Assembly (NCBI GenBank): GCA_949825045.1
Contig: OX463829.1
Span: 248,001 to 312,000, forward strand
DNA: 64,000 nt
Reading direction: 5' to 3'
Source: Argyresthia goedartella
Taxonomy: Eukaryota > Arthropoda > Insecta > Lepidoptera > Argyresthiidae
Positions 6,116 through 50,658 of this stretch are shown one piece after another (within the stretch, counting starts at the first letter, position 1; each line of letters begins with the position of its first letter). The notes below the pieces were generated by a model. That model made no database searches. It was not told where the DNA came from and was given only the letters and a program-made list of their open reading frames with translations. Both the position numbers and the translations under genes were made by a program.

Positions 6116-7075
6116 AAGTCAATAGTCAAAGTACTTTATTACTGTAGATATTTACATATACTTAGCAAACGTCATTTTTTGCCTCTTCTCTACATTGGAC
6201 CACTGTGGGAGAAGAAGGGCGTAGAAACTCCCACAGATTGATTTTTAGATCTCTTTTAAAAATAGGTTGTGCTTAACTAATACAAATATGAAAAATTTAA
6301 TTGTTATGATTAATAAGCAGGAATAAATAATTACAAAATTATTAACAGCAAGGTCTGTGTTGAGCCAGATTAACCCCATACAGTCCTGTCATTTAAGTAA
6401 TCTTGAACATTGTAATATCCCTTTTTCGACAAAGTTGCTTTAACATGCTTTTTAAATTGCTCAAGTGGCAATTTCAAAATCTCCAGAGGTATCTTATTGT
6501 AGTAGAGAATGCACTGACCCTTGAAAGAATTGCTAACCTTCGCGAGTCTAAAACGGGGCGCACATAGTCTGTGATTATTTCTTAGGTAAACATTACAGCT
6601 ATCGCTAAGTTTGGAAAATGTTGTAAGGTTCTTGCGTACATACATTATATTTTCGAAAATAAATTGACTAGCTACTGTTAGTATGTCAATTTCTTTAAAA
6701 AGCTCTCTTAAGGAGTCTGTTCGTTTTAAATTATAAATTGCTCGAATAGCTCTTTTCTGTAAAATAAAAATAGTTTGAATATCCGCTGCTTTCCCCCACA
6801 ACAAGATACCATAGGACATCACACTATGAAAGTAACTAAAATATACTAGCCTAGATGTAGCCACATCCGTGCTTTGTCTGATGTTCCTAACAGCGTAAGC
6901 CGCAGAACTTAATTTACCAGCCAATTTATCTATGTGGGGTCCCCACTGCAATTTGCTATCAATGGTTATTCCAAGAAACTTCGTATCATTTACTAATTCT
7001 AACGTGCTGTTGTCTAACACTAAACTGCTCTCAACTTGCCTGACATTTGGAAGTGAGAATTTGATACACTTGAAG
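6116..7075 (-). mobile_element. LINE-C, 5'-truncated LINE inserted in LINE-B
   Basis: This 960-bp piece carries only the C-terminal third of a LINE ORF2 (7060-6370), with FLGITIDSKLQWGPHIDKLAGKL, SYGILLWG and LQKRAIRAIYNL, followed by a 254-bp 3' UTR ending in AATAAAGTACTTTGAC-like sequence. It is set between two parts of LINE-B that otherwise read SPSLL then DIIIVSNLDK. CTTCT is found at both junctions and may be the target duplication. The last 159 bp (6116-6274) recur almost unchanged at 41861-42019 and 47066-47224, beside the capsid-like frames. Confidence 0.85.
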
Positions 7076-7761
7076 AGAAGAGAGGGAGAACAATGGGGCT
7101 GGAAATGAGTGGCCTCAAGTGGCAAGATGTGGAGATTGAATGAATCAACTATGGACCTGAGTTTGGCAGAACGGGAATTCTTTTTGAGGAGACAGGTGTT
7201 GAAATCCCCAAGAATGAGAGTGTCGTCGTAAATTGGGGTCAAATCATTAAGAAGGGATTCAAAGGTGTCGAAGTAGTCAACACGAAGAGAGGGGCTATAG
7301 AGGACACCAAGCAGCACCTTATTGTGATGAAAAACAATTTCAAGGAAGAGGTATTCAGCAGACTCGGAGTACTGGCTAGGGGATACATTAATCACCTTAC
7401 AAGCAATTTCCGCACGCAGGTAAACAAAGACACCTCCGTCTGCCTTTCCGGTTCTGTCGTTCCTATATAGCCTGAAGCCTGGAAGAGAGTACATGGATGA
7501 AGGGAGTGAAGGCTTAAGGAACGACTCAGAGACAAGGATGCCGTCCACACGTTGCTCAGAAAAAGCCTCGATGAGATCGGGGTAGCTAGTGTGAATACTT
7601 TGAGCATTGATGTGCACTATGTTCAGATTTTTCCCTGACCCACCAAAGACAGTCTTAAGTTTGACGGAAAGCGGTTCTTCCACAGTGGAAATATCGCTTT
7701 CCGCACTAATAAATTCATCGCTAGAAGCACACGACAAGAAGCTATCATTATGGATATCCAT
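7076..7761 (-). pseudogene. LINE-B ORF2, endonuclease part, fused by chance to LINE-C
   Basis: Residues 1-228 of the 463-codon frame 7761-6370 are an APE-type endonuclease: NIVHINAQSIHTSYPDL, VSESFLKP, a YRNDRTGKADGGVFVY block, GVLYSPS and ILGDFNTCLL. The frame then passes directly into LINE-C thumb sequence at 7075, so the 463-residue product is an accident of nested insertion, not one protein. The natural continuation is the RT at 6115-3879. The ATG at 7761 could be the true ORF2 start, since an acidic stretch precedes the endonuclease. Confidence 0.85.
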
Positions 7762-8026
7762 ACTATATATAGGTAAATAATATAGATATATGTATAAAAA
7801 TATATACTACAATAATGTAAATGTTAGTAAAACACAAAAAAAAAACAAGTAAATAACTTAACGGAATGACCTAGACCCATTGCCAGACAACGATTGCTGA
7901 AGTAAGCAGAAAATCTACTTCTTTTAGTTATAAACAACATACAGGATAAAATAAATTAACAACTGGGCAGCGGACAGTGAAGGCACAGAAACAAAATAGA
8001 ACATAACATGAAAAATGTTTTGGAAG

Positions 8027-38734: not shown

Positions 38735-40562
38735 ACATCATACATGCAGAATCGTAACCAGATAGTTGCATTGAAGGGTTACACATCCCAACCGGTAAGG
38801 ATATCCTCCGGTATTCCGCAGGGATCACTAACAGGACCTTTGTTCTTTATAATCTTTATCAACGATCTGGCTGCGAAACTTAATAATCCTTGTCTGTTAT
38901 ACGCAGACGACCTTAAAATATTTTCCAGAATCCGAAATACAAACGACTGCGTTAATCTCCAGGCTGACATTGACACGCTTTCTGACTGGTGCAATGAAAA
39001 CCATATGGCACTAGGGATAGACAAATGCTTCAGTATATCTTTCACACTTAATAAGAATAAAATTAGGTATGACTAGAATATAGATTCTGTAGCACTACAA
39101 AGGAAATCCGTCGCTCGAGATCTTGGCGTAATTTTTGACGAGAAACTTAGTTTCAATCACCATTATGCAGCACTCATTCCAAAATGCAACCAACTTCTAG
39201 GATTTATTTCCCGTGTCACTAAGACTTTCAAGAACCCAAAGAGTTTAATACTCCTTTATAACACCCTGGTCCGCAGCAGGCTCGAATATGCCTCTATTAT
39301 ATGGTCCCCACATTATAAAGTCCATATTGACTTAATAGAGTCCATACAGAAGCGATTTCTGCGCAAGTTGTGTGCACGCTTTGGTCATCGGCGTACGCTC
39401 AGCTCATATGAGACGAGATGTAAGCACTACCACATAAATACACTTGAAAACCGTAGAAAACTCCAAGACCTCGTCCGTCTTCATAAAATAGTCAGAGGCA
39501 CCATAGCAACGTCACTACTATCAAACATTGACATCTACGTCCCTAACCGATCTGTGAGAATCCCCCGCACTTTTTCTATCCCCCCTTGCAGAATTAACGT
39601 CAGCGCCAACAACCCACTGGTGCGGATGTGTCGTTCATGCAACGCGGTTTCTGCCAATCATGATCCCAACGGGCCTGACATCTATCACGATTCACTGCCA
39701 TGTTTTAAATATAAGATTTTAAAATTGTTACAGTAATATTAGTTTCCAACCTTATTCAAGCACATATTATCTATTTGTGATTAATTTTCACGCCTACCGA
39801 ACGGCGTGGAATCCTGAGGGGGGTGGGCTTTTGCCAGCACGTGACAGAAAAGTGAATTGAATGCTTACTGACCTTTGTCGCCGTAGACAGGAAATCTAAA
39901 GCTCGATTCGAGACAGGAATACGGGATAAGAGCAGAATTGGGATAGGATAGGAATCGAATCACTATCGTTGCTACCCGACGCTGTTCGCCGGCGTGCTGC
40001 TGCCGACACGTGGAGTCGCCGCTACCGATACGACGAGTTGGAGACCGTACAACTTCAACCTTCACCACAAATCACTCAACCGCTGACGCGAATCTACTTA
40101 TTTCCCGACGATGGTTATGATGAGCACTCCGACCAGGCCCGACGCCTGTATTAGAGAATTGTTACACCGAATTACAATCACTGGCCCGACGCCTGAGCAG
40201 ACATGTTGTTCTCCCGATGAGAAAAAAAGCAAAGATAACCTCCAATTTTTTCCTCTCGTTGGTACGAGTGACAGCTGCGGTCCGTTTCCGCTTAGTGATG
40301 TCCCGATTACTCGCGGTCGATCCGCGCAACAAAAAACCGGTGCGTTCCGAAGCATAAATATTAAACAATGTGCCTATAATAATTTACTAATTACTTAGAT
40401 TTGTATTATTTTAAGTCATATAATTATGTGCTTATTGTCAAGTGTGTTTCATAGTCATGTTATATACACATGGTTTTGGCGTTTCAGACGGAAATGTTTA
40501 GTCAAATCTCTAAGTTGTAATGTTTGTCTGTAATGCTGTTTTGTGTATTAATAAATAAATAA

Positions 40563-40740
40563 ATGGACCGTTAAGGCATGTTCTATACAACTTTATAAGG
40601 GAAAAGGAGGGCTCAAACAGTGATAATAACGTATTTAAAGAATTTACTTACGAAAACCTACCCCATGAAAAAAGAACACGAGGTGGGAATACTTCCAATT
40701 TAGTTCGAACAGAATTCGTAAACTATTTCATTTCCGAAGC
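40563..40740 (+). pseudogene. Harbinger-1 transposase, C-terminal fragment
   Basis: Directly after the LINE-F tail it reads TVKACSI and, one frame over, NFIREKGGLK. This is the VKAC..LHNFIRE block that normally follows the TTAV residues left at 33486. A small deletion breaks the frame and a stop follows soon after. It confirms that LINE-F lies inside the transposase. Confidence 0.7.
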
Positions 40741-40805
40741 TTGATCAGTTCCATGGCAGGATGAAGCTGTTTAGAATGTAATTAAATAATAAAAGAGACA
40801 CTTAC

Positions 40806-41001
40806 CGAACTCTTGTCTTTATCTTTGTTCCATAACCTCAAAATCCCCCATTAAAATAACGCATATTTCGCGCCAACCTGCAATACTTGCAGTATTCTCT
40901 CTGTATATATCCAGCGTCTTGTCCCAAAGGACTGGCCTATCTTCCACCAAACTAATTAACATTTCCTTGTCTATTAACTTTTCCCACTCCTTGGTTGACA
41001 T
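40806..41001 (-). pseudogene. Harbinger-1 accessory protein, first exon (MADF domain start)
   Basis: ATG at 41001: MSTKEWEKLIDKEMLISLVE, then RPVLWDKTLDIYREN, WREICVILMGDFE and VMEQR, a TAA stop, then RQEFG and a GTAAGT donor at 40805. LI..V..rPvLWd..l..Y and W.eI are the hallmarks of MADF (a Myb-like DNA-binding domain). The second half of the domain is at 32793-32250, about 8 kb away because of LINE-F (about 0.9 kb without it). Confidence 0.82.
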
Positions 41002-41330
41002 AGTTAATCAGTGATTATAATAATTATTACACACAATGCACGCGCGCGTTCTCTATGAATGTACAATAGAAAATGCGAGTCAAAACCTGTCGCATCACTC
41101 CCCCTCCCCCCGCACACACCGCTCTATCCGTTCAAATTCTACGTATCCGTATATTTTTACTGTTCCGTCGTCCAGTATTCGATGACAAAACGGAATGTAT
41201 TTTTTTTACGGAACGATATTTTTACTGTATAAAGAATTCTGTGTCATGTGTGAAGTCGCTCATACAACTACATACGCCATCGACGAAAAAAAAACATACA
41301 CGATATAACGGAGACATGTGTGAACCGGCC

Positions 41331-41860
41331 GTAAGCGACGCCGTCTATCCTCACGTATCCGCACAGGTATCTGTTCGAGCGAGTCAGGCGCAAGCCCGCA
41401 ATCATAGCCTCCTATAACTAACAAGCCATGAACGTAAGTTTGGCAACGTCGCCTAGCTGTCAGTAAGTGGTCCTATGGTCGTTTCCCATCTATCATCTAA
41501 TAGGCATGTAAATAAAACAACAGTACCTTTTCCAGGGGTGAAATTAATGAGAAATAAATAAAAAATGTTGTATATTTGTAATACCATACTTTATTTAACA
41601 CTGAAATGAATGAAACAGAATCAAATAAGTTATAATTAGCGTCAACATTTTCCTTTTCTTCCCTTTATTACATTGAACAAAGTTGGTCATATGTTTTTGG
41701 TAATTATTTAATAGTAGTTTATGTGACTGCTACGTAATTGAAGGTATTAACACTCGAGAGTGGGTTTCGCCTTCGGCTCGTTTCATAATAATATCACTCG
41801 AGAGTTTTAATGCCTAATTATGTACAGTTACATACACTAGTTTATCTACACACATATCAT
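41331..41860. other. Non-coding DNA between Harbinger-1 and the LINE-C tail
   Basis: No gene seen. At 41752-41806 a phrase TTCGCCTTCGGCTCG is bracketed by ACTCGAGAG direct repeats; a relative lies at 28851-28915. Confidence 0.4.
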
Positions 41861-42019
41861 AAGTCAATAGTCAAAGTACTTTATTACTGTAGATATTTAC
41901 ATATACTTAGCAAACGTCATTTTTTGCCTCTTCTCTACATTGGACCACTGTGGGAGAAGAAGGGCGTAGAAACTCCCACAGATTTATTTTTAGATCTCTT
42001 TTAAAAATAGGTTGTGCTT
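41861..42019 (-). mobile_element. LINE-C-type 3' tail, 159 bp, joined to the capsid-like frame
   Basis: Nearly identical to 6116-6274, from the exact 3' end of LINE-C to GTTGTGCTT. It has the same orientation as the adjoining capsid-like frame and lies on its 3' side. This is the layout left when LINE reverse transcriptase starts on its own RNA tail and then jumps to another RNA. Confidence 0.88.
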
Positions 42020-42187
42020 CCCTATCTATTTATTTAAAATTAATTATTAATTCTACTAATCTTAATGAACTTATTTAGATTTATTATCTGTAAGTGTAAC
42101 GTTAAGTTATTTAGTTAAAACTAATTTGCTTATTTGACTGTACCCTCGATGCTACTCGCCGTGGCCGCGGTCTTAAGCTTTGGATGG

Positions 42188-43648
42188 TTAGCGAAGGCTA
42201 ACTATCATCCTACGCACTATGGCGTTGGTTCTGTTTCTTTGAGAATCAGAAATAGAGACGAACCTCTCTACATCCATACCAGGGGGTAGTTCCCGTCTAG
42301 CATTTCTATTCTCGATCCACGCCTCTGGAATGTTCCATGGGTGGGCTGCGTTTGCTTGCTCCAAACAGCACCAGTTGTTGTGACTGTTGGCAATCGCGCT
42401 CTTGATCAGTTGATATCCCGTCAGATATGTTGCTCCGAACGTAGTCGTCGAGCTCGCATTTGCCGAGGTGGGTCTAACGACTAGGTTAGTCCACTTTTCA
42501 GCTGCGTTGTTGTTCTCTGTCGTGGGTACTGACTTGATCAGTTGGGCAGTGTCTCCTTCAATTGTGAGAGCATCCAGCTTGACTTTTTCATTTCTGAATG
42601 TCTTGCATCCAGCGAAGTAGTCACTGACTCTCTGTACAATGTTGATGTTCAGTCTGGTCCCTGAGACCGTTTCGCGGAAATGGGTTGCATCTATACCTGT
42701 CGAGGTTAATAGAATTCGCAACTCTTCTTTGCGCGGTCCGATGTTCCCGTAATTTCCTACCAGTGCTCTGGTTGGACGGGTATGTGGCGGGGTAACTCTG
42801 AAGTTTGGTACTGGTTGTACCGCTTCTGAGGCCTCAGCCATCATGTAATCTCCACAGATCCCTAATGAAGGAATCTCTTCGTAGAGATTGTGGGAGTTAG
42901 CGTCTATCGTTTGGGTATGGTACCCTCCGAAGCCGTTCACTACTGTCTTAGGTAGCGTGTGGTTAGCCAGGTGCACAGTTTTACCTGATGCATCTTTGAC
43001 TTCCCCCACACCTTTCAAAAACAGATAGATGGGCTGTGGAATATTGTACTCAAATCCCGCGACGGATTTCAAAAACTCCTGTTCCTCATAGGCGAGAGCG
43101 GTGTCTCCGCGTTTCGCTTTTATGTCTAACAAGCGTGTCCAGAGCATTGCCGTACTGTAGTAAGACAACATCCCTTTTGACATTTGCTTATTTAGGTTTG
43201 TGTCGTCACCTCCGATTGAGGCGTAGACTTCGTCAATTATTTCGGGTAGCCTAGCAAAGCTGGGCGTGATCTCCTGATTAACGTTTAATTCTCGTACGGA
43301 TACGTCGATGCCGAATATAGAATCAGCCCACATTGGGGTGTTCTTTTGGGCGGTCGGCTTATTTCCGAGCGAGGTTGGTACCGGGATATTTGGTGTTGCC
43401 GGTCCTTGTGGTCGTGCTTGAGGTTTTGATCCACCCGCATGATTTGGGTTGAACTTCTCAGGCTTACCACGATAGCCTGGGGCTATCTTCTTAATCTCCT
43501 CCTTCGTGTAAATCTTCTTTACCTGAGGTTGATTTTGGTTCTCCATTGTCACTTTGATCTCTTTAGCTTTCAGCGTAGAACAAAATGGGAACAAAAGGGA
43601 AAAGAACAAAAAACAATAAGCTCTCTTTGATGTGTTCAGGAACCGCAT
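42188..43648 (-). CDS. Candidate endogenous viral element: RNA-virus capsid-like protein, copy 1
   Basis: An open 486-codon frame. The likely viral start is the internal ATG at 43546 (452 residues); the 34 codons before it read through a U-rich leader and the edge of the host repeat. The N terminus is basic and proline-rich (about residues 35-95), followed by a long, even-composition region without retroviral, gag zinc-knuckle or transposase motifs. It ends in an arginine-rich segment (RNARRELPPGMD, RMIVSLR). Overall style and size resemble capsid proteins of insect partiti-like double-stranded RNA viruses; this is a family impression, not a search result. No stops or shifts. A 168-bp 3' leader-like region and a LINE-C tail follow. 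It is either a recent capture or kept by selection. Confidence 0.6.
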   Translation of the reverse strand: MRFLNTSKRAYCFLFFSLLFPFCSTLKAKEIKVTMENQNQPQVKKIYTKEEIKKIAPGYRGKPEKFNPNHAGGSKPQARPQGPATPNIPVPTSLGNKPTAQKNTPMWADSIFGIDVSVRELNVNQEITPSFARLPEIIDEVYASIGGDDTNLNKQMSKGMLSYYSTAMLWTRLLDIKAKRGDTALAYEEQEFLKSVAGFEYNIPQPIYLFLKGVGEVKDASGKTVHLANHTLPKTVVNGFGGYHTQTIDANSHNLYEEIPSLGICGDYMMAEASEAVQPVPNFRVTPPHTRPTRALVGNYGNIGPRKEELRILLTSTGIDATHFRETVSGTRLNINIVQRVSDYFAGCKTFRNEKVKLDALTIEGDTAQLIKSVPTTENNNAAEKWTNLVVRPTSANASSTTTFGATYLTGYQLIKSAIANSHNNWCCLEQANAAHPWNIPEAWIENRNARRELPPGMDVERFVSISDSQRNRTNAIVRRMIVSLR

Positions 43649-43768
43649 GTTTGACCGGAATTGTGGCTCTATAGTTGTTTAGCTTGTTCTGTAGTACCAA
43701 CTTCGCAGACAAACTAGGGGCGGCACGCAGGCGGGCGTCGGCGTTCGAAATTGGAATGTCATAATGTG
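43627..43768 (-). repeat. Dispersed repeat at the 5' edge of capsid-like copy 1
   Basis: Relative of 31313-31465. The first seven codons of the 486-codon frame (MRFLNTS) come from this repeat, marking the insert boundary at about 43626. A 12-bp perfect foldback (43760-43771 with 43777-43788, 5-nt loop) lies at its far end. Confidence 0.75.
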
Positions 43769-44035
43769 TAGAAAAACTACACATTATGGTTATAATGTGT
43801 AATTTTTAGTCGCTTAGCTGTAATCGGTATTCGGAAGGCGCCAAAATTAATCGATATTTGTTTTTAAAAGTTAATTTTAACTTGCCTAGTTTAGTGTGTG
43901 CCAATTTGTATGGATTTCGTATTCGGAAGGCATTTTAGTTGGCCGATTTTAGTTACTTTTTGACAGATAGCAGTTAAAATTAACGGGCATGGTTTTGGTG
44001 GCAATTAAAATTAACTTGAGGCCATTTTGGTCAGA

Positions 44036-44941
44036 ACAGGACCTTTGTTCTTTATAATCTTTATCAACGATCTGGCTGCGAAACTTAATAATCCTTGTCT
44101 GTTATACGCAGACGACCTTAAAATATTTTCCAGAATCCGAAATACAAACGACTGCGTTAATCTCCAGGCTGACATTGACACGCTTTCTGACTGGTGCAAT
44201 GAAAACCATATGGCACTAGGGATAGACAAATGCTTCAGTATATCTTTCACACTTAATAAGAATAAAATTAGGTATGACTAGAATATAGATTCTGTAGCAC
44301 TACAAAGGAAATCCGTCGCTCGAGATCTTGGCGTAATTTTTGACGAGAAACTTAGTTTCAATCACCATTATGCAGCACTCATTCCAAAATGCAACCAACT
44401 TCTAGGATTTATTTCCCGTGTCACTAAGACTTTCAAGAACCCAAAGAGTTTAATACTCCTTTATAACACCCTGGTCCGCAGCAGGCTCGAATATGCCTCT
44501 ATTATATGGTCCCCACATTATAAAGTCCATATTGACTTAATAGAGTCCATACAGAAGCGATTTCTGCGCAAGTTGTGTGCACGCTTTGGTCATCGGCGTA
44601 CGCTCAGCTCATATGAGACGAGATGTAAGCACTACCACATAAATACACTTGAAAACCGTAGAAAACTCCAAGACCTCGTCCGTCTTCATAAAATAGTCAG
44701 AGGCACCATAGCAACGTCACTACTATCAAACATTGACATCTACGTCCCTAACCGATCTGTGAGAATCCCCCGCACTTTTTCTATCCCCCCTTGCAGAATT
44801 AACGTCAGCGCCAACAACCCACTGGTGCGGATGTGTCGTTCATGCAACGCGGTTTCTGCCAATCATGATCCCAACGGGCCTGACATCTATCACGATTCAC
44901 TGCCATGTTTTAAATATAAGATTTTAAAATTGTTACAGTAA
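44036..44941 (+). pseudogene. LINE-F RT 3' half, second copy
   Basis: Begins mid-motif at GPLFFIIFIND and carries LLYADDLKIF to KYKILKLLQ, with the same internal stop as copy 1 (near 44278). It has no 5' part because the duplication starts inside the RT. The shared stop shows that the mutation preceded the duplication. Confidence 0.92.
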
Positions 44942-46010
44942 TATTAGTTTCCAACCTTATTCAAGCACATATTATCTATTTGTGATTAATTTTCACGCCT
45001 ACCGAACGGCGTGGAATCCTGAGGGGGGTGGGCTTTTGCCAGCACGTGACAGAAAAGTGAATTGAATGCTTACTGACCTTTGTCGCCGTAGACAGGAAAT
45101 CTAAAGCTCGATTCGAGACAGGAATACGGGATAAGAGCAGAATTGGGATAGGATAGGAATCGAATCACTATCGTTGCTACCCGACGCTGTTCGCCGGCGT
45201 GCTGCTGCCGACACGTGGAGTCGCCGCTACCGATACGACGAGTTGGAGACCGTACAACTTCAACCTTCACCACAAATCACTCAACCGCTGACGCGAATCT
45301 ACTTATTTCCCGACGATGGTTATGATGAGCACTCCGACCAGGCCCGACGCCTGTATTAGAGAATTGTTACACCGAATTACAATCACTGGCCCGACGCCTG
45401 AGCAGACATGTTGTTCTCCCGATGAGAAAAAAAGCAAAGATAACCTCCAATTTTTTCCTCTCGTTGGTACGAGTGACAGCTGCGGTCCGTTTCCGCTTAG
45501 TGATGTCCCGATTACTCGCGGTCGATCCGCGCAACAAAAAACCGGTGCGTTCCGAAGCATAAATATTAAACAATGTGCCTATAATAATTTACTAATTACT
45601 TAGATTTGTATTATTTTAAGTCATATAATTATGTGCTTATTGTCAAGTGTGTTTCATAGTCATGTTATATACACATGGTTTTGGCGTTTCAGACGGAAAT
45701 GTTTAGTCAAATCTCTAAGTTGTAATGTTTGTCTGTAATGCTGTTTTGTGTATTAATAAATAAATAAATGGACCGTTAAGGCATGTTCTATACAACTTTA
45801 TAAGGGAAAAGGAGGGCTCAAACAGTGATAATAACGTATTTAAAGAATTTACTTACGAAAACCTACCCCATGAAAAAAGAACACGAGGTGGGAATACTTC
45901 CAATTTAGTTCGAACAGAATTCGTAAACTATTTCATTTCCGAAGCTTGATCAGTTCCATGGCAGGATGAAGCTGTTTAGAATGTAATTAAATAATAAAAG
46001 AGACACTTAC

Positions 46011-46206
46011 CGAACTCTTGTCTTTATCTTTGTTCCATAACCTCAAAATCCCCCATTAAAATAACGCATATTTCGCGCCAACCTGCAATACTTGCAGTAT
46101 TCTCTCTGTATATATCCAGCGTCTTGTCCCAAAGGACTGGCCTATCTTCCACCAAACTAATTAACATTTCCTTGTCTATTAACTTTTCCCACTCCTTGGT
46201 TGACAT
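46011..46206 (-). pseudogene. Harbinger-1 MADF first exon, second copy
   Basis: Copy of 40806-41001 in the second tandem unit, with the same stop and donor. It has no second exon of its own nearby. Confidence 0.85.
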
Positions 46207-47065
46207 AGTTAATCAGTGATTATAATAATTATTACACACAATGCACGCGCGCGTTCTCTATGAATGTACAATAGAAAATGCGAGTCAAAACCTGTCGCAT
46301 CACTCCCCCTCCCCCCGCACACACCGCTCTATCCGTTCAAATTCTACGTATCCGTATATTTTTACTGTTCCGTCGTCCAGTATTCGATGACAAAACGGAA
46401 TGTATTTTTTTTACGGAACGATATTTTTACTGTATAAAGAATACTGTGTCATGTGTGAAGTCGCTCATACAACTACATACGCCATCGACGAAAAAAAAAC
46501 ATACACGATATAACGGAGACATGTGTGAACCGGCCGTAAGCGACGCCGTCTATCCTCACGTATCCGCACAGGTATCTGTTCGAGCGAGTCAGGCGCAAGC
46601 CCGCAATCATAGCCTCCTATAACTAACAAGCCATGAACGTAAGTTTGGCAACGTCGCCTAGCTGTCAGTAAGTGGTCCTATGGTCGTTTCCCATCTATCA
46701 TCTAATAGGCATGTAAATAAAACAACAGTACCTTTTCCAGGGGTGAAATTAATGAGAAATAAATAAAAAATGTTGTATATTTGTAATACCATACTTTATT
46801 TAACACTGAAATGAATGAAACAGAATCAAATAAGTTATAATTAGCGTCAACATTTTCCTTTTCTTCCCTTTATTACATTGAACAAAGTTGGTCATATGTT
46901 TTTGGTAATTATTTAATAGTAGTTTATGTGACTGCTACGTAATTGAAGGTATTAACACCCGAGAGTGGGTTTCGCCTTCGGCTCGTTTCATAATAATATC
47001 ACTCGAGAGTTTTAATGCCTAATTATGTACAGTTACATACACTAGTTTATCTACACACATATCAT

Positions 47066-47224
47066 AAGTCAATAGTCAAAGTACTTTATTACTGTAGATA
47101 TTTACATATACTTAGCAAACGTCATTTTTTGCCTCTTCTCTACATTGGACCACTGTGGGAGAAGAAGGGCGTAGAAACTCCCACAGATTTATTTTTAGAT
47201 CTCTTTTAAAAATAGGTTGTGCTT
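47066..47224 (-). mobile_element. LINE-C-type 3' tail, second copy
   Basis: Copy of 41861-42019 in the second tandem unit, again directly downstream of the capsid-like frame. Confidence 0.88.
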
Positions 47225-47392
47225 CCCTATCTATTTATTTAAAATTAATTATTAATTCTACTAATCTTAATGAACTTATTTAGATTTATTATCTGTAAGT
47301 GTAACGTTAAGTTATTTAGTTAAAACTAATTTGCTTATTTGACTGTACCCTCGATGCTACTCGCCGTGGCCGCGGTCTTAAGCTTTGGATGG

Positions 47393-48853
47393 TTAGCGAA
47401 GGCTAACTATCATCCTACGCACTATGGCGTTGGTTCTGTTTCTTTGAGAATCAGAAATAGAGACGAACCTCTCTACATCCATACCAGGGGGTAGTTCCCG
47501 TCTAGCATTTCTATTCTCGATCCACGCCTCTGGAATGTTCCATGGGTGGGCTGCGTTTGCTTGCTCCAAACAGCACCAGTTGTTGTGACTGTTGGCAATC
47601 GCGCTCTTGATCAGTTGATATCCCGTCAGATATGTTGCTCCGAACGTAGTCGTCGAGCTCGCATTTGCCGAGGTGGGTCTAACGACTAGGTTAGTCCACT
47701 TTTCAGCTGCGTTGTTGTTCTCTGTCGTGGGTACTGACTTGATCAGTTGGGCAGTGTCTCCTTCAATTGTGAGAGCATCCAGCTTGACTTTTTCATTTCT
47801 GAATGTCTTGCATCCAGCGAAGTAGTCACTGACTCTCTGTACAATGTTGATGTTCAGTCTGGTCCCTGAGACCGTTTCGCGGAAATGGGTTGCATCTATA
47901 CCTGTCGAGGTTAATAGAATTCGCAACTCTTCTTTGCGCGGTCCGATGTTCCCGTAATTTCCTACCAGTGCTCTGGTTGGACGGGTATGTGGCGGGGTAA
48001 CTCTGAAGTTTGGTACTGGTTGTACCGCTTCTGAGGCCTCAGCCATCATGTAATCTCCACAGATCCCTAATGGAGGAATCTCTTCGTAGAGATTGTGGGA
48101 GTTAGCGTCTATCGTTTGGGTATGGTACCCTCCGAAGCCGTTCACTACTGTCTTAGGTAGCGTGTGGTTAGCCAGGTGCACAGTTTTACCTGATGCATCT
48201 TTGACTTCCCCCACACCTTTCAAAAACAGATAGATGGGCTGTGGAATATTGTACTCAAATCCCGCGACGGATTTCAAAAACTCCTGTTCCTCATAGGCGA
48301 GAGCGGTGTCTCCGCGTTTCGCTTTTATGTCTAACAAGCGTGTCCAGAGCATTGCCGTACTGTAGTAAGACAACATCCCTTTTGACATTTGCTTATTTAG
48401 GTTTGTGTCGTCACCTCCGATTGAGGCGTAGACTTCGTCAATTATTTCGGGTAGCCTAGCAAAGCTGGGCGTGATCTCCTGATTAACGTTTAATTCTCGT
48501 ACGGTTACGTCGATGCCGAATATAGAATCAGCCCACATTGGGGTGTTCTTTTGGGCGGTCGGCTTATTTCCGAGCGAGGTTGGTACCGGGATATTTGGTG
48601 TTGCCGGTCCTTGTGGTCGTGCTTGAGGTTTTGATCCACCCGCATGATTTGGGTTGAACTTCTCAGGCTTACCACGATAGCCTGGGGCTATCTTCTTAAT
48701 CTCCTCCTTCGTGTAAATCTTCTTTACCTGAGGTTGATTTTGGTTCTCCATTGTCACTTTGATCTCTTTAGCTTTCAGCGTAGAACAAAATGGGAACAAA
48801 AGGGAAAAGAACAAAAAACAATAAGCTCTCTTTGATGTGTTCAGGAACCGCAT
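47393..48853 (-). CDS. Candidate endogenous viral element: RNA-virus capsid-like protein, copy 2
   Basis: Open 486-codon frame equal to 42188-43648 except for two residues: serine to threonine in the VRELNVNQ neighbourhood and serine to proline before LGICGDYMM. Both changes are non-synonymous. Probable internal start at 48751. Still uninterrupted. Flanks are those of copy 1 (repeat on the 5' side at 48832-48973, LINE-C tail on the 3' side). Confidence 0.6.
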   Translation of the reverse strand: MRFLNTSKRAYCFLFFSLLFPFCSTLKAKEIKVTMENQNQPQVKKIYTKEEIKKIAPGYRGKPEKFNPNHAGGSKPQARPQGPATPNIPVPTSLGNKPTAQKNTPMWADSIFGIDVTVRELNVNQEITPSFARLPEIIDEVYASIGGDDTNLNKQMSKGMLSYYSTAMLWTRLLDIKAKRGDTALAYEEQEFLKSVAGFEYNIPQPIYLFLKGVGEVKDASGKTVHLANHTLPKTVVNGFGGYHTQTIDANSHNLYEEIPPLGICGDYMMAEASEAVQPVPNFRVTPPHTRPTRALVGNYGNIGPRKEELRILLTSTGIDATHFRETVSGTRLNINIVQRVSDYFAGCKTFRNEKVKLDALTIEGDTAQLIKSVPTTENNNAAEKWTNLVVRPTSANASSTTTFGATYLTGYQLIKSAIANSHNNWCCLEQANAAHPWNIPEAWIENRNARRELPPGMDVERFVSISDSQRNRTNAIVRRMIVSLR

Positions 48854-50658
48854 GTTTGACCGGAATTGTGGCTCTATAGTTGTTTAGCTTGTTCTGTAGT
48901 ACCAACTTCGCAGACAAACTAGGGGCGGCACGCAGGCGGGCGTCGGCGTTCGAAATTGGAATGTCATAATGTGTAGAAAAACTACACATTATGGTTATAA
49001 TGTGTAATTTTTAGTCGCTTAGCTGTAATCGGTATTCGGAAGGCGCCAAAATTAATCGATATTTGTTTTTAAAAGTTAATTTTAACTTGCCTAGTTTAGT
49101 GTGTGCCAATTTGTATGGATTTCGTATTCGGAAGGCATTTTAGTTGGCCGATTTTAGTTACTTTTTGACAGATAGCAGTTAAAATTAACGGGCATGGTTT
49201 TGGTGGCAATTAAAATTAACTTGAGGCCATTTTGGTCAGATTTCGTATGAAAACTATTATTTTCTGTGTATTTCAGTCTAATCGTCTAGTCTAATTCGAG
49301 ATAATCAAGCAATTTAATCAATCAATCAATTGATCAATCGAACGTAATTTTAAGCGGGAAATTTATTTTTCTTGCCTCGACTTCTGTTTTGGCGGTTTTT
49401 TCTATATCCCAAAATATCTATAACAAATAAATGGATATCGAATACGGCTACGATATCGTGGCGGCTTTCTTAGCCCTAGATGAAGAGTCTAATTACCGGC
49501 GGTAAGTTACAACAGATTGTTTTTCACATACTTATCAATTTCCTTCAATCAATCAAACCAGCGCACATCTACGCACTGTTGATTACAGGCCTTCCTTTAC
49601 TACGAGATCAATACCTACTTAGGTCCCGTGCCTTTAAATTTTCTACCTCTTCTACTGTTATAATAGGTAAACTAAAATGATTATTCTTGCAGATTGCAGG
49701 AGCGCGCCAGTATGCAGGGGTTAAGGGATAGTTCGAATCCCTTCATGCTGGCTGACGCAAAGTTTATTGAACTGTTTGGGTTGCCAACTACTGCTGTCCA
49801 ACAGATAATTTCATCTATCTGCCTATCATTTATAAACATATGAATATTATACAGGTAGGTAGGTGTTATAAGTAGGAAAGAAGTGAAGCACCGCTTTACT
49901 GTAGTGCGTATATTCGACTGAATACTTTAGAGCATCTGAAGCTTCACGTGAAATTTGCTTCAAGTAATTAAATTATGATTGTAAAAACTGTGAAGCATAC
50001 TTAAAATGCTTAAAGCTTGATGTTCTCACTTCAACTCTAGACATATTTTATAAAAAACAAAATTATTTTATGGGTTCTTATAGGTAGGTACCTACTTATT
50101 TCAAAAACAACTTTGTCCCTAACTAATTATCTTATATTTTCACTCATAGGTGTCTGATGCTAACTGCAAAATATTGAGCATCAACCCCAACTTTCCGGGG
50201 TCTACCCATGATGCGGCTGTCTGGAGGGCGAGTGACGTGCATCGCCACCTGCAGACAAAATATGTGGAGGGAGAAAGGGGTAATTGGCTTCTAGGTTAGT
50301 ATTAATGTTTTTACTTAATACAAAACTTCAATCTGTAATTTATCAACTTTTCAAACTATTTTTTTTTATTCGACCAATAGCAATATCAATTATTTTAAGG
50401 AGATAAAGGCTATCCCTTGCTGCCGTGGCTAATGACTCCACTAGCGGGTGCCCCGGCTGGATCACCATCCGGACGGTACAACGCCTGCCATACCAGACCA
50501 CGCAATGTGGTCGAAAGGTGCTTTGGCAGGCTGAAGGGGAAGTTCCGCTGCCTCCACCAGCACAGAACAATGCATTACTCGTTCACCAAGGCGGCCAAAT
50601 TTGTGGTGGCCTGCTGCACCCTGCACAATATGTGGCTGCAAGGAACATTCGATGGTAT

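Follow-up and report, generated by a model that had tools for sequence, protein, structure and literature searches.

RNA viruses that lack a reverse transcriptase have entered insect genomes without a molecular mark as clear as the one known in mammals. The R2 reverse transcriptase reportedly performs end-to-end template jumping in the test-tube work of Bibillo and Eickbush, and the RNA hairpin s2m is known from coronaviruses and astroviruses. In mammals, bornavirus-like and filovirus-like endogenous viral elements (EVEs) made by LINEs carry a poly-A tract and target-site duplications, and in the accessible text of the same survey these features were not apparent for any insect EVE (Katzourakis and Gifford 2010, PMC2987831). 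According to the accessible parts of two further reports, a dinoRNAV EVE has a LINE 95 bp downstream (PMC10235124), and a nodavirus in an LTR element was explained by LTR capture (PMC5177903). Tengs et al. (2021, PMC8515862) described s2m beside a hypothetical protein in insects and in a spider-associated virus; they named no virus family, raised an EVE as a possibility only, gave no integration mechanism and suggested a restriction-factor role for the protein.

In this study, we analyzed a 64,000-nucleotide stretch of the Argyresthia goedartella genome (the window) and found a predicted partiti-like virus capsid frame joined to the 3' tail of a LINE, here called LINE-C. Judging from the arrangement of the sequence, this locus very probably represents a complete partiti-like virus segment turned into DNA through a LINE-C template jump. 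Synthesis would have begun at a chromosomal nick, where the LINE-C reverse transcriptase used 159 nt of its own RNA as template; it would then have switched to the 3' end of the viral plus strand and followed that strand through to its 5' end. The insertion was duplicated in tandem afterwards. Similar jumps, involving further LINE families and related viruses, likely produced 8 or more additional insertions in the genome. As in the mammalian LINE EVEs, RNA-virus genes would thereby reach the germ line through LINE machinery, but here the mark consists of a LINE fragment fused on in the viral orientation, while the mark in mammals, in the accessible text, is poly-A plus target-site duplication (PMC2987831). 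The proposed event resembles R2 template jumping in that an enzyme leaves the RNA it is copying and continues from the 3' end of a second RNA, and differs from the test-tube work in that several LINE families are involved, the acceptor is viral and the setting is a genome. The locus also shares with the dinoRNAV and nodavirus EVEs the position of virus sequence beside retroelements, whereas the accessible parts of those reports describe no base-exact joint at the viral end (PMC10235124, PMC5177903). Our search of the literature on LINE template switching and EVEs, which covered few subscription papers and some sources only in part, likewise found no base-exact LINE-virus joint among the papers listed. 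With the insect s2m "xenologue" of Tengs et al. (PMC8515862), the locus has in common the protein family and an s2m just downstream; unlike that study, we propose a virus family and an integration mechanism.

The capsid frame is open for 496 codons from stop to stop (43678-42188, minus strand), confirming the uninterrupted frame of an initial annotation of this DNA, and encodes 452 aa plus stop from the ATG at 43546 (42188..43546). That annotation had assigned the frame to a partiti-like virus capsid, and both protein search and structure prediction bore this out. The matches included the putative capsid of Ips partiti-like virus 1 (E 4.2e-95, 40% identity over 98%), a virus for which a table in the accessible part of PMC12567637 gives four accessions, and the predicted structure had a partitivirus capsid fold, with Foldseek PDB matches that were weak taken alone. 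Sequence homology and the predicted fold thus support the frame as a homologue of insect partiti-like virus capsids. The homologues comprised viral proteins, segment-sized contigs and proteins from other insects' genomes, among them relatives from Operophtera and Hubei tetragnatha maxillosa virus, and many lay on contigs of about 1.4-1.6 kb. A host multicopy gene or a retrotransposon gag as best match had been named beforehand as outcomes that would speak against a virus; the matches did not point to a host gene, and no gag was named among them. The Pfam search of the frame returned no family at E<=1, in agreement with the earlier remark that it carries no transposon motif, and the PDB sequence search returned chance-level rows only. 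Viral contigs gave no match to a close exogenous relative, and no virus sequence with mapped termini was found. Separately, C21:23385040-23386047 (L075) holds a 453-codon frame that matches RdRP_1 with 147.8 bits; it may be the endogenous RdRp of some related virus, and it is not linked to the virus of the capsid.

We then delimited the insertion. The apparent complete viral segment is 1,570 nt long (42020..43589, minus strand) and has AGGG at its 3' end. Both of its ends recur in other insertions of this genome, and on that ground 43589-42020 appears to represent a viral segment in full. On the 5' side, a U-rich filler (43590..43615, minus strand) separates the viral 5' end from a high-copy dispersed repeat aligned at 43616..43807, as expected from the U-rich leader reported earlier to run up to a dispersed repeat. 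Read by eye, the filler partly echoes the viral 5' end, as though the enzyme had stuttered ahead of second-strand synthesis.

On the 3' side, the 159-nt LINE-C tail (41861..42019, minus strand) begins immediately after AGGG, the apparent viral 3' terminus, in the same orientation as the viral part, and retains the short heptamer-like repeat that forms the LINE-C terminus. Compared with the 3' tail of the LINE-C copy in the window (6116..6274, minus strand), 159 of 159 nt aligned with 1 mismatch (99.4%), and the description of this terminus as exact does not hold for that copy; it does hold for 9 LINE-C copies elsewhere, which were identical to the tail over 159 nt among 40 of 168 candidates scored. 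We fetched 30 tail loci, and the sharp cut proposed earlier was evident: LINE-C continued upstream through the 60 nt compared by eye in 27 of them, for about 26 nt only in one (L043), and was replaced by the capsid in two, both copies of the window locus. The prior suggestion that LINE-C copies might normally carry this frame as their own gene was rejected, as 28 of the 30 loci had no capsid. A Pfam search of the LINE-C copy in the window (frame 6370-7806) at E<=0.01 returned no match to a reverse transcriptase. The claim that the donor LINE lies in the window is thus right in that a LINE-C copy is present there, and it is this missing match that makes the copy, from its sequence, more likely a sister of the donor than the acting donor.

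Mammal-type marks were absent from the window locus: no poly-A was present at 42020, and no target-site duplication was seen. For comparison, among 16 ordinary LINE-C copies one had a shared word of 9 nt and 15 had only 4-6 nt. Two features expected of a template jump were found, namely a LINE 3' end with its terminal repeat in the orientation of the acceptor and a joint at what we infer to be the 3' terminus of the acceptor RNA. Because LINE-C copies of almost this length occur (L043 exceeds it by about 26 nt), the window locus taken by itself is also compatible with a chance insertion.

The window also contains a tandem duplication that is absent from the initial annotation. The unit at 38830..44034 is repeated at 44035..49239 with 4 differences in 5,205 bp, giving two frames and two joints, and the second copy holds a capsid frame (47393..48751), an s2m (47338..47380) and a LINE-C tail (47066..47224), all on the minus strand. 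The 4 differences in 5,205 bp, together with the full identity between the tail and other LINE-C copies, suggest that the insertion is young. These data bear on whether the frame has been kept as a working host gene, a domesticated antiviral capsid, which concerns its fate and not its origin. The frame is intact in both tandem copies, and the restriction-factor role suggested by Tengs et al. (PMC8515862) would accord with such a function, but 2 of the 4 differences lie inside the frame and both change an amino acid, and in an insertion that looks young an intact frame needs no selection. We regard domestication as unlikely.

To extend the comparison to the genome, 37 genome matches and the L062 insertion (C24) were resolved into 15 insertion events. 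Copies from tandem or segmental duplication or from arrays were merged, as were the pieces of split matches (the second window copy, L012, L017 and extra array units), and 5 rows at 27-29% identity, representing other viruses, were dropped. The viral part ended at the same AGGG in 6 of the 15 events (window, L028, L010, L013, L015 and L021). LINE-type sequence of several families then followed in 9 of the 15 (window, L028, L010, L018, L014, L015, L016, L021 and L022), in the viral orientation in all nine, and in four (L016, L018, L022 and L014) the joint lay inside the viral RNA and not at its end. These shared ends and orientations fit end-to-end template jumping. The initial annotation had proposed a LINE-made insertion by template switching onto a viral RNA; this proposal now has support beyond the window, since the same apparent viral terminus, with LINEs of matching orientation after it, recurs in other insertions. 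The switch is best read, more precisely, as one in which the enzyme moved to the 3' end of the viral template. We infer that the shared ends are viral RNA termini, with priming at a nick and copying by the LINE enzyme.

The downstream elements were diverse. L028 is followed by the tail of another LINE, of which 121 nt were found in full in 19 further rows of 40 scored, and a contiguous copy of that element (L073) has a LINE ORF2-like C-terminus upstream by a weak match (22 aa at 64%). L010 and L018 are followed by a multi-copy element with a PHD-like ORF1 (PHD matches below Pfam's cut-off) and endonuclease domains, 1.4-2.1 kb downstream. Parts of LINEs coding for reverse transcriptase or endonuclease follow in L014 (tblastn 1.4e-11; RVT_1 4.4e-5, below Pfam's cut-off), L016, L021 and L022 (tblastn 5e-8 at the joint), and an endonuclease-reverse transcriptase LINE follows the viral part in L015. 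RVT_1 exceeded the cut-off after the viral part in L015, L016 and L021; among solved structures, the L016 reverse transcriptase was closest to R2 and that of L021 to human L1. The element downstream of L021 is LINE-C (99.2% over 365 nt), and one LINE family is therefore joined to two viruses. L013 is followed by dispersed pieces of 100 nt and then 133 nt, the first weakly LINE-like (2e-4), and was excluded from the nine. No LINE was present at the joint in 5 of the 15 events (L009, L011/L012, the L019 array, L023 and L062); in L062 the direct neighbour is a BEL/Pao LTR-retrotransposon frame of opposite orientation (L062:1644-3122; PF05380, 2.4e-30).

To locate the breakpoints, joint-spanning queries were compared with genome copies for four events. 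In L015, 22 of 23 rows began at the base after AGGG. In L021, 17 of 39 other rows began at that base, 8 copies being identical over 162 nt from it, and 13 began one base earlier, but 5 began 2-8 bases further into the viral side. For L010, 23 of 31 rows began 5 nt after AGGG and 2 directly after it, and for L018, 11 of 19 rows began 3-8 nt past the last viral base, 8 later and none nearer.

These results also bear on whether a 5'-truncated LINE-C happened to land at the 3' edge of a viral insertion that was already in place and had arisen by another route. Short-tailed LINE-C copies such as L043, the lack of a target-site duplication around the whole virus-LINE unit, and a LINE fragment inside the L021 capsid frame, as from a secondary insertion, would all agree with such an event. 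It is nevertheless very unlikely, as AGGG is the shared breakpoint of six events that represent three or more capsid lineages and continue into differing sequences, and nine of nine LINEs share the viral orientation, which would occur once in 512 if orientation were random.

Several comparisons bear on the independence of the events. The window, L009, L010 and L021 share the viral 5' start CCCATTTT, L014 starts with CCCAGTTT, and L015, L016, L018 and L022 start with TTTTAACC. The viral parts of the last four are 98.7-99.9% alike and start at the same 5' base, and both flanks differ. L016 and L017 were counted as one event, since they agree at 99.97% over 5,927 nt with their flanks included. 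In a tree of 45 capsids (35 of 85 homologues entered the tree and 43 the alignment), the 10 rows from this genome required 4 label changes (bootstraps 4-4), and the window, L013 and L015 fell in separate parts; the tree left out L014 (one stop, removed by the filter), L010, L012, L017, L020, L021, L027 and L028. It is scarcely credible that a LINE family adopted the viral capsid as a gene and mobilizes it: capsid and LINE do share an orientation at several loci, but the joints vary both in LINE family and in position within the LINE, 28 of 30 LINE-C tail loci are without a capsid, near-identical viral copies are followed by differing sequences, and no second locus with the same joint and different flanks was present among the loci compared.

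The viral 3' UTR in the window carries an s2m (RF00164; 42133..42175, minus strand; 52.0 bits against a gathering cut-off of 50), which is also absent from the initial annotation. The genome held 13 s2m matches, 8 of them over the cut-off, and 14 control genomes held none. Matches over the cut-off lay in the 3' UTRs of the window, L009, L023, L028 and L062, matches below it in those of L010 and L013, and L015 and L021 had no match. Covariation across ten copies (8 distinct) was 0.524, compared with 0.186 in shuffled alignments and at most 0.164 when slid, pointing to a paired structure that is kept through compensating changes; single-sequence folding was no better than shuffles (z -0.14). The frame beside the s2m in L062 encodes a different protein of 468 aa with five homologues, three in butterfly or moth genomes and two on contigs of up to 1,484 and 1,454 nt, and by these matches L062 is plausibly another viral segment.

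Five of the 13 s2m matches lay in an unrelated dispersed element (L065, L066, L069 and L071 on C5, L070 on C19; best 56.6 bits), and for this reason not every insect s2m is explained by the virus of the capsid. In this element, s2m lies between a short ORF, membrane-like by eye, and a long ORF; the 7,996 candidates scored for the latter yielded no homologue at E<=0.01. Two near-identical copies of the element (L069 and L071) carry a LINE-C insertion.

These observations raise the possibility that jumping of LINE reverse transcriptases onto viral 3' ends is the main route from RNA virus to insect gene, and that the s2m hairpins scattered in insect genomes are for the most part relics of partiti-like viruses that carried s2m and arrived in this way. 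We advance this reading tentatively, at slightly less than an even chance, a judgment tempered by L062 and by the s2m in the second, unrelated element. The 3' UTRs of partiti-like virus segments would then be a possible source of the puzzling insect s2m (PMC8515862), and s2m would extend to a lineage allied to dsRNA viruses; among the papers listed, a text search covering few subscription papers found none joining s2m to partiti-like viruses. Recurrent joints would explain how insects can acquire virus genes. A LINE fragment fused to a viral 3' end would be a mark that can be scanned for in any genome, and such joints would give the termini of viral RNAs and could help date the events.

Other virus-like frames adjoin two of the capsid insertions. 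A tenuivirus/phlebovirus nucleocapsid-like frame (L019:4409-5410; PF05733, 1.7e-11) lies in the C5 array of roughly 10-kb units, and a Baculovirus F protein-like frame (PF12259, 2.2e-6) lies at L012:3302-3967. C5, which makes up 3.6% of the genome, holds 8 of the 15 insertion events (binomial 1.5e-8, with events as defined here) and is possibly a sex chromosome or a piRNA-rich region.
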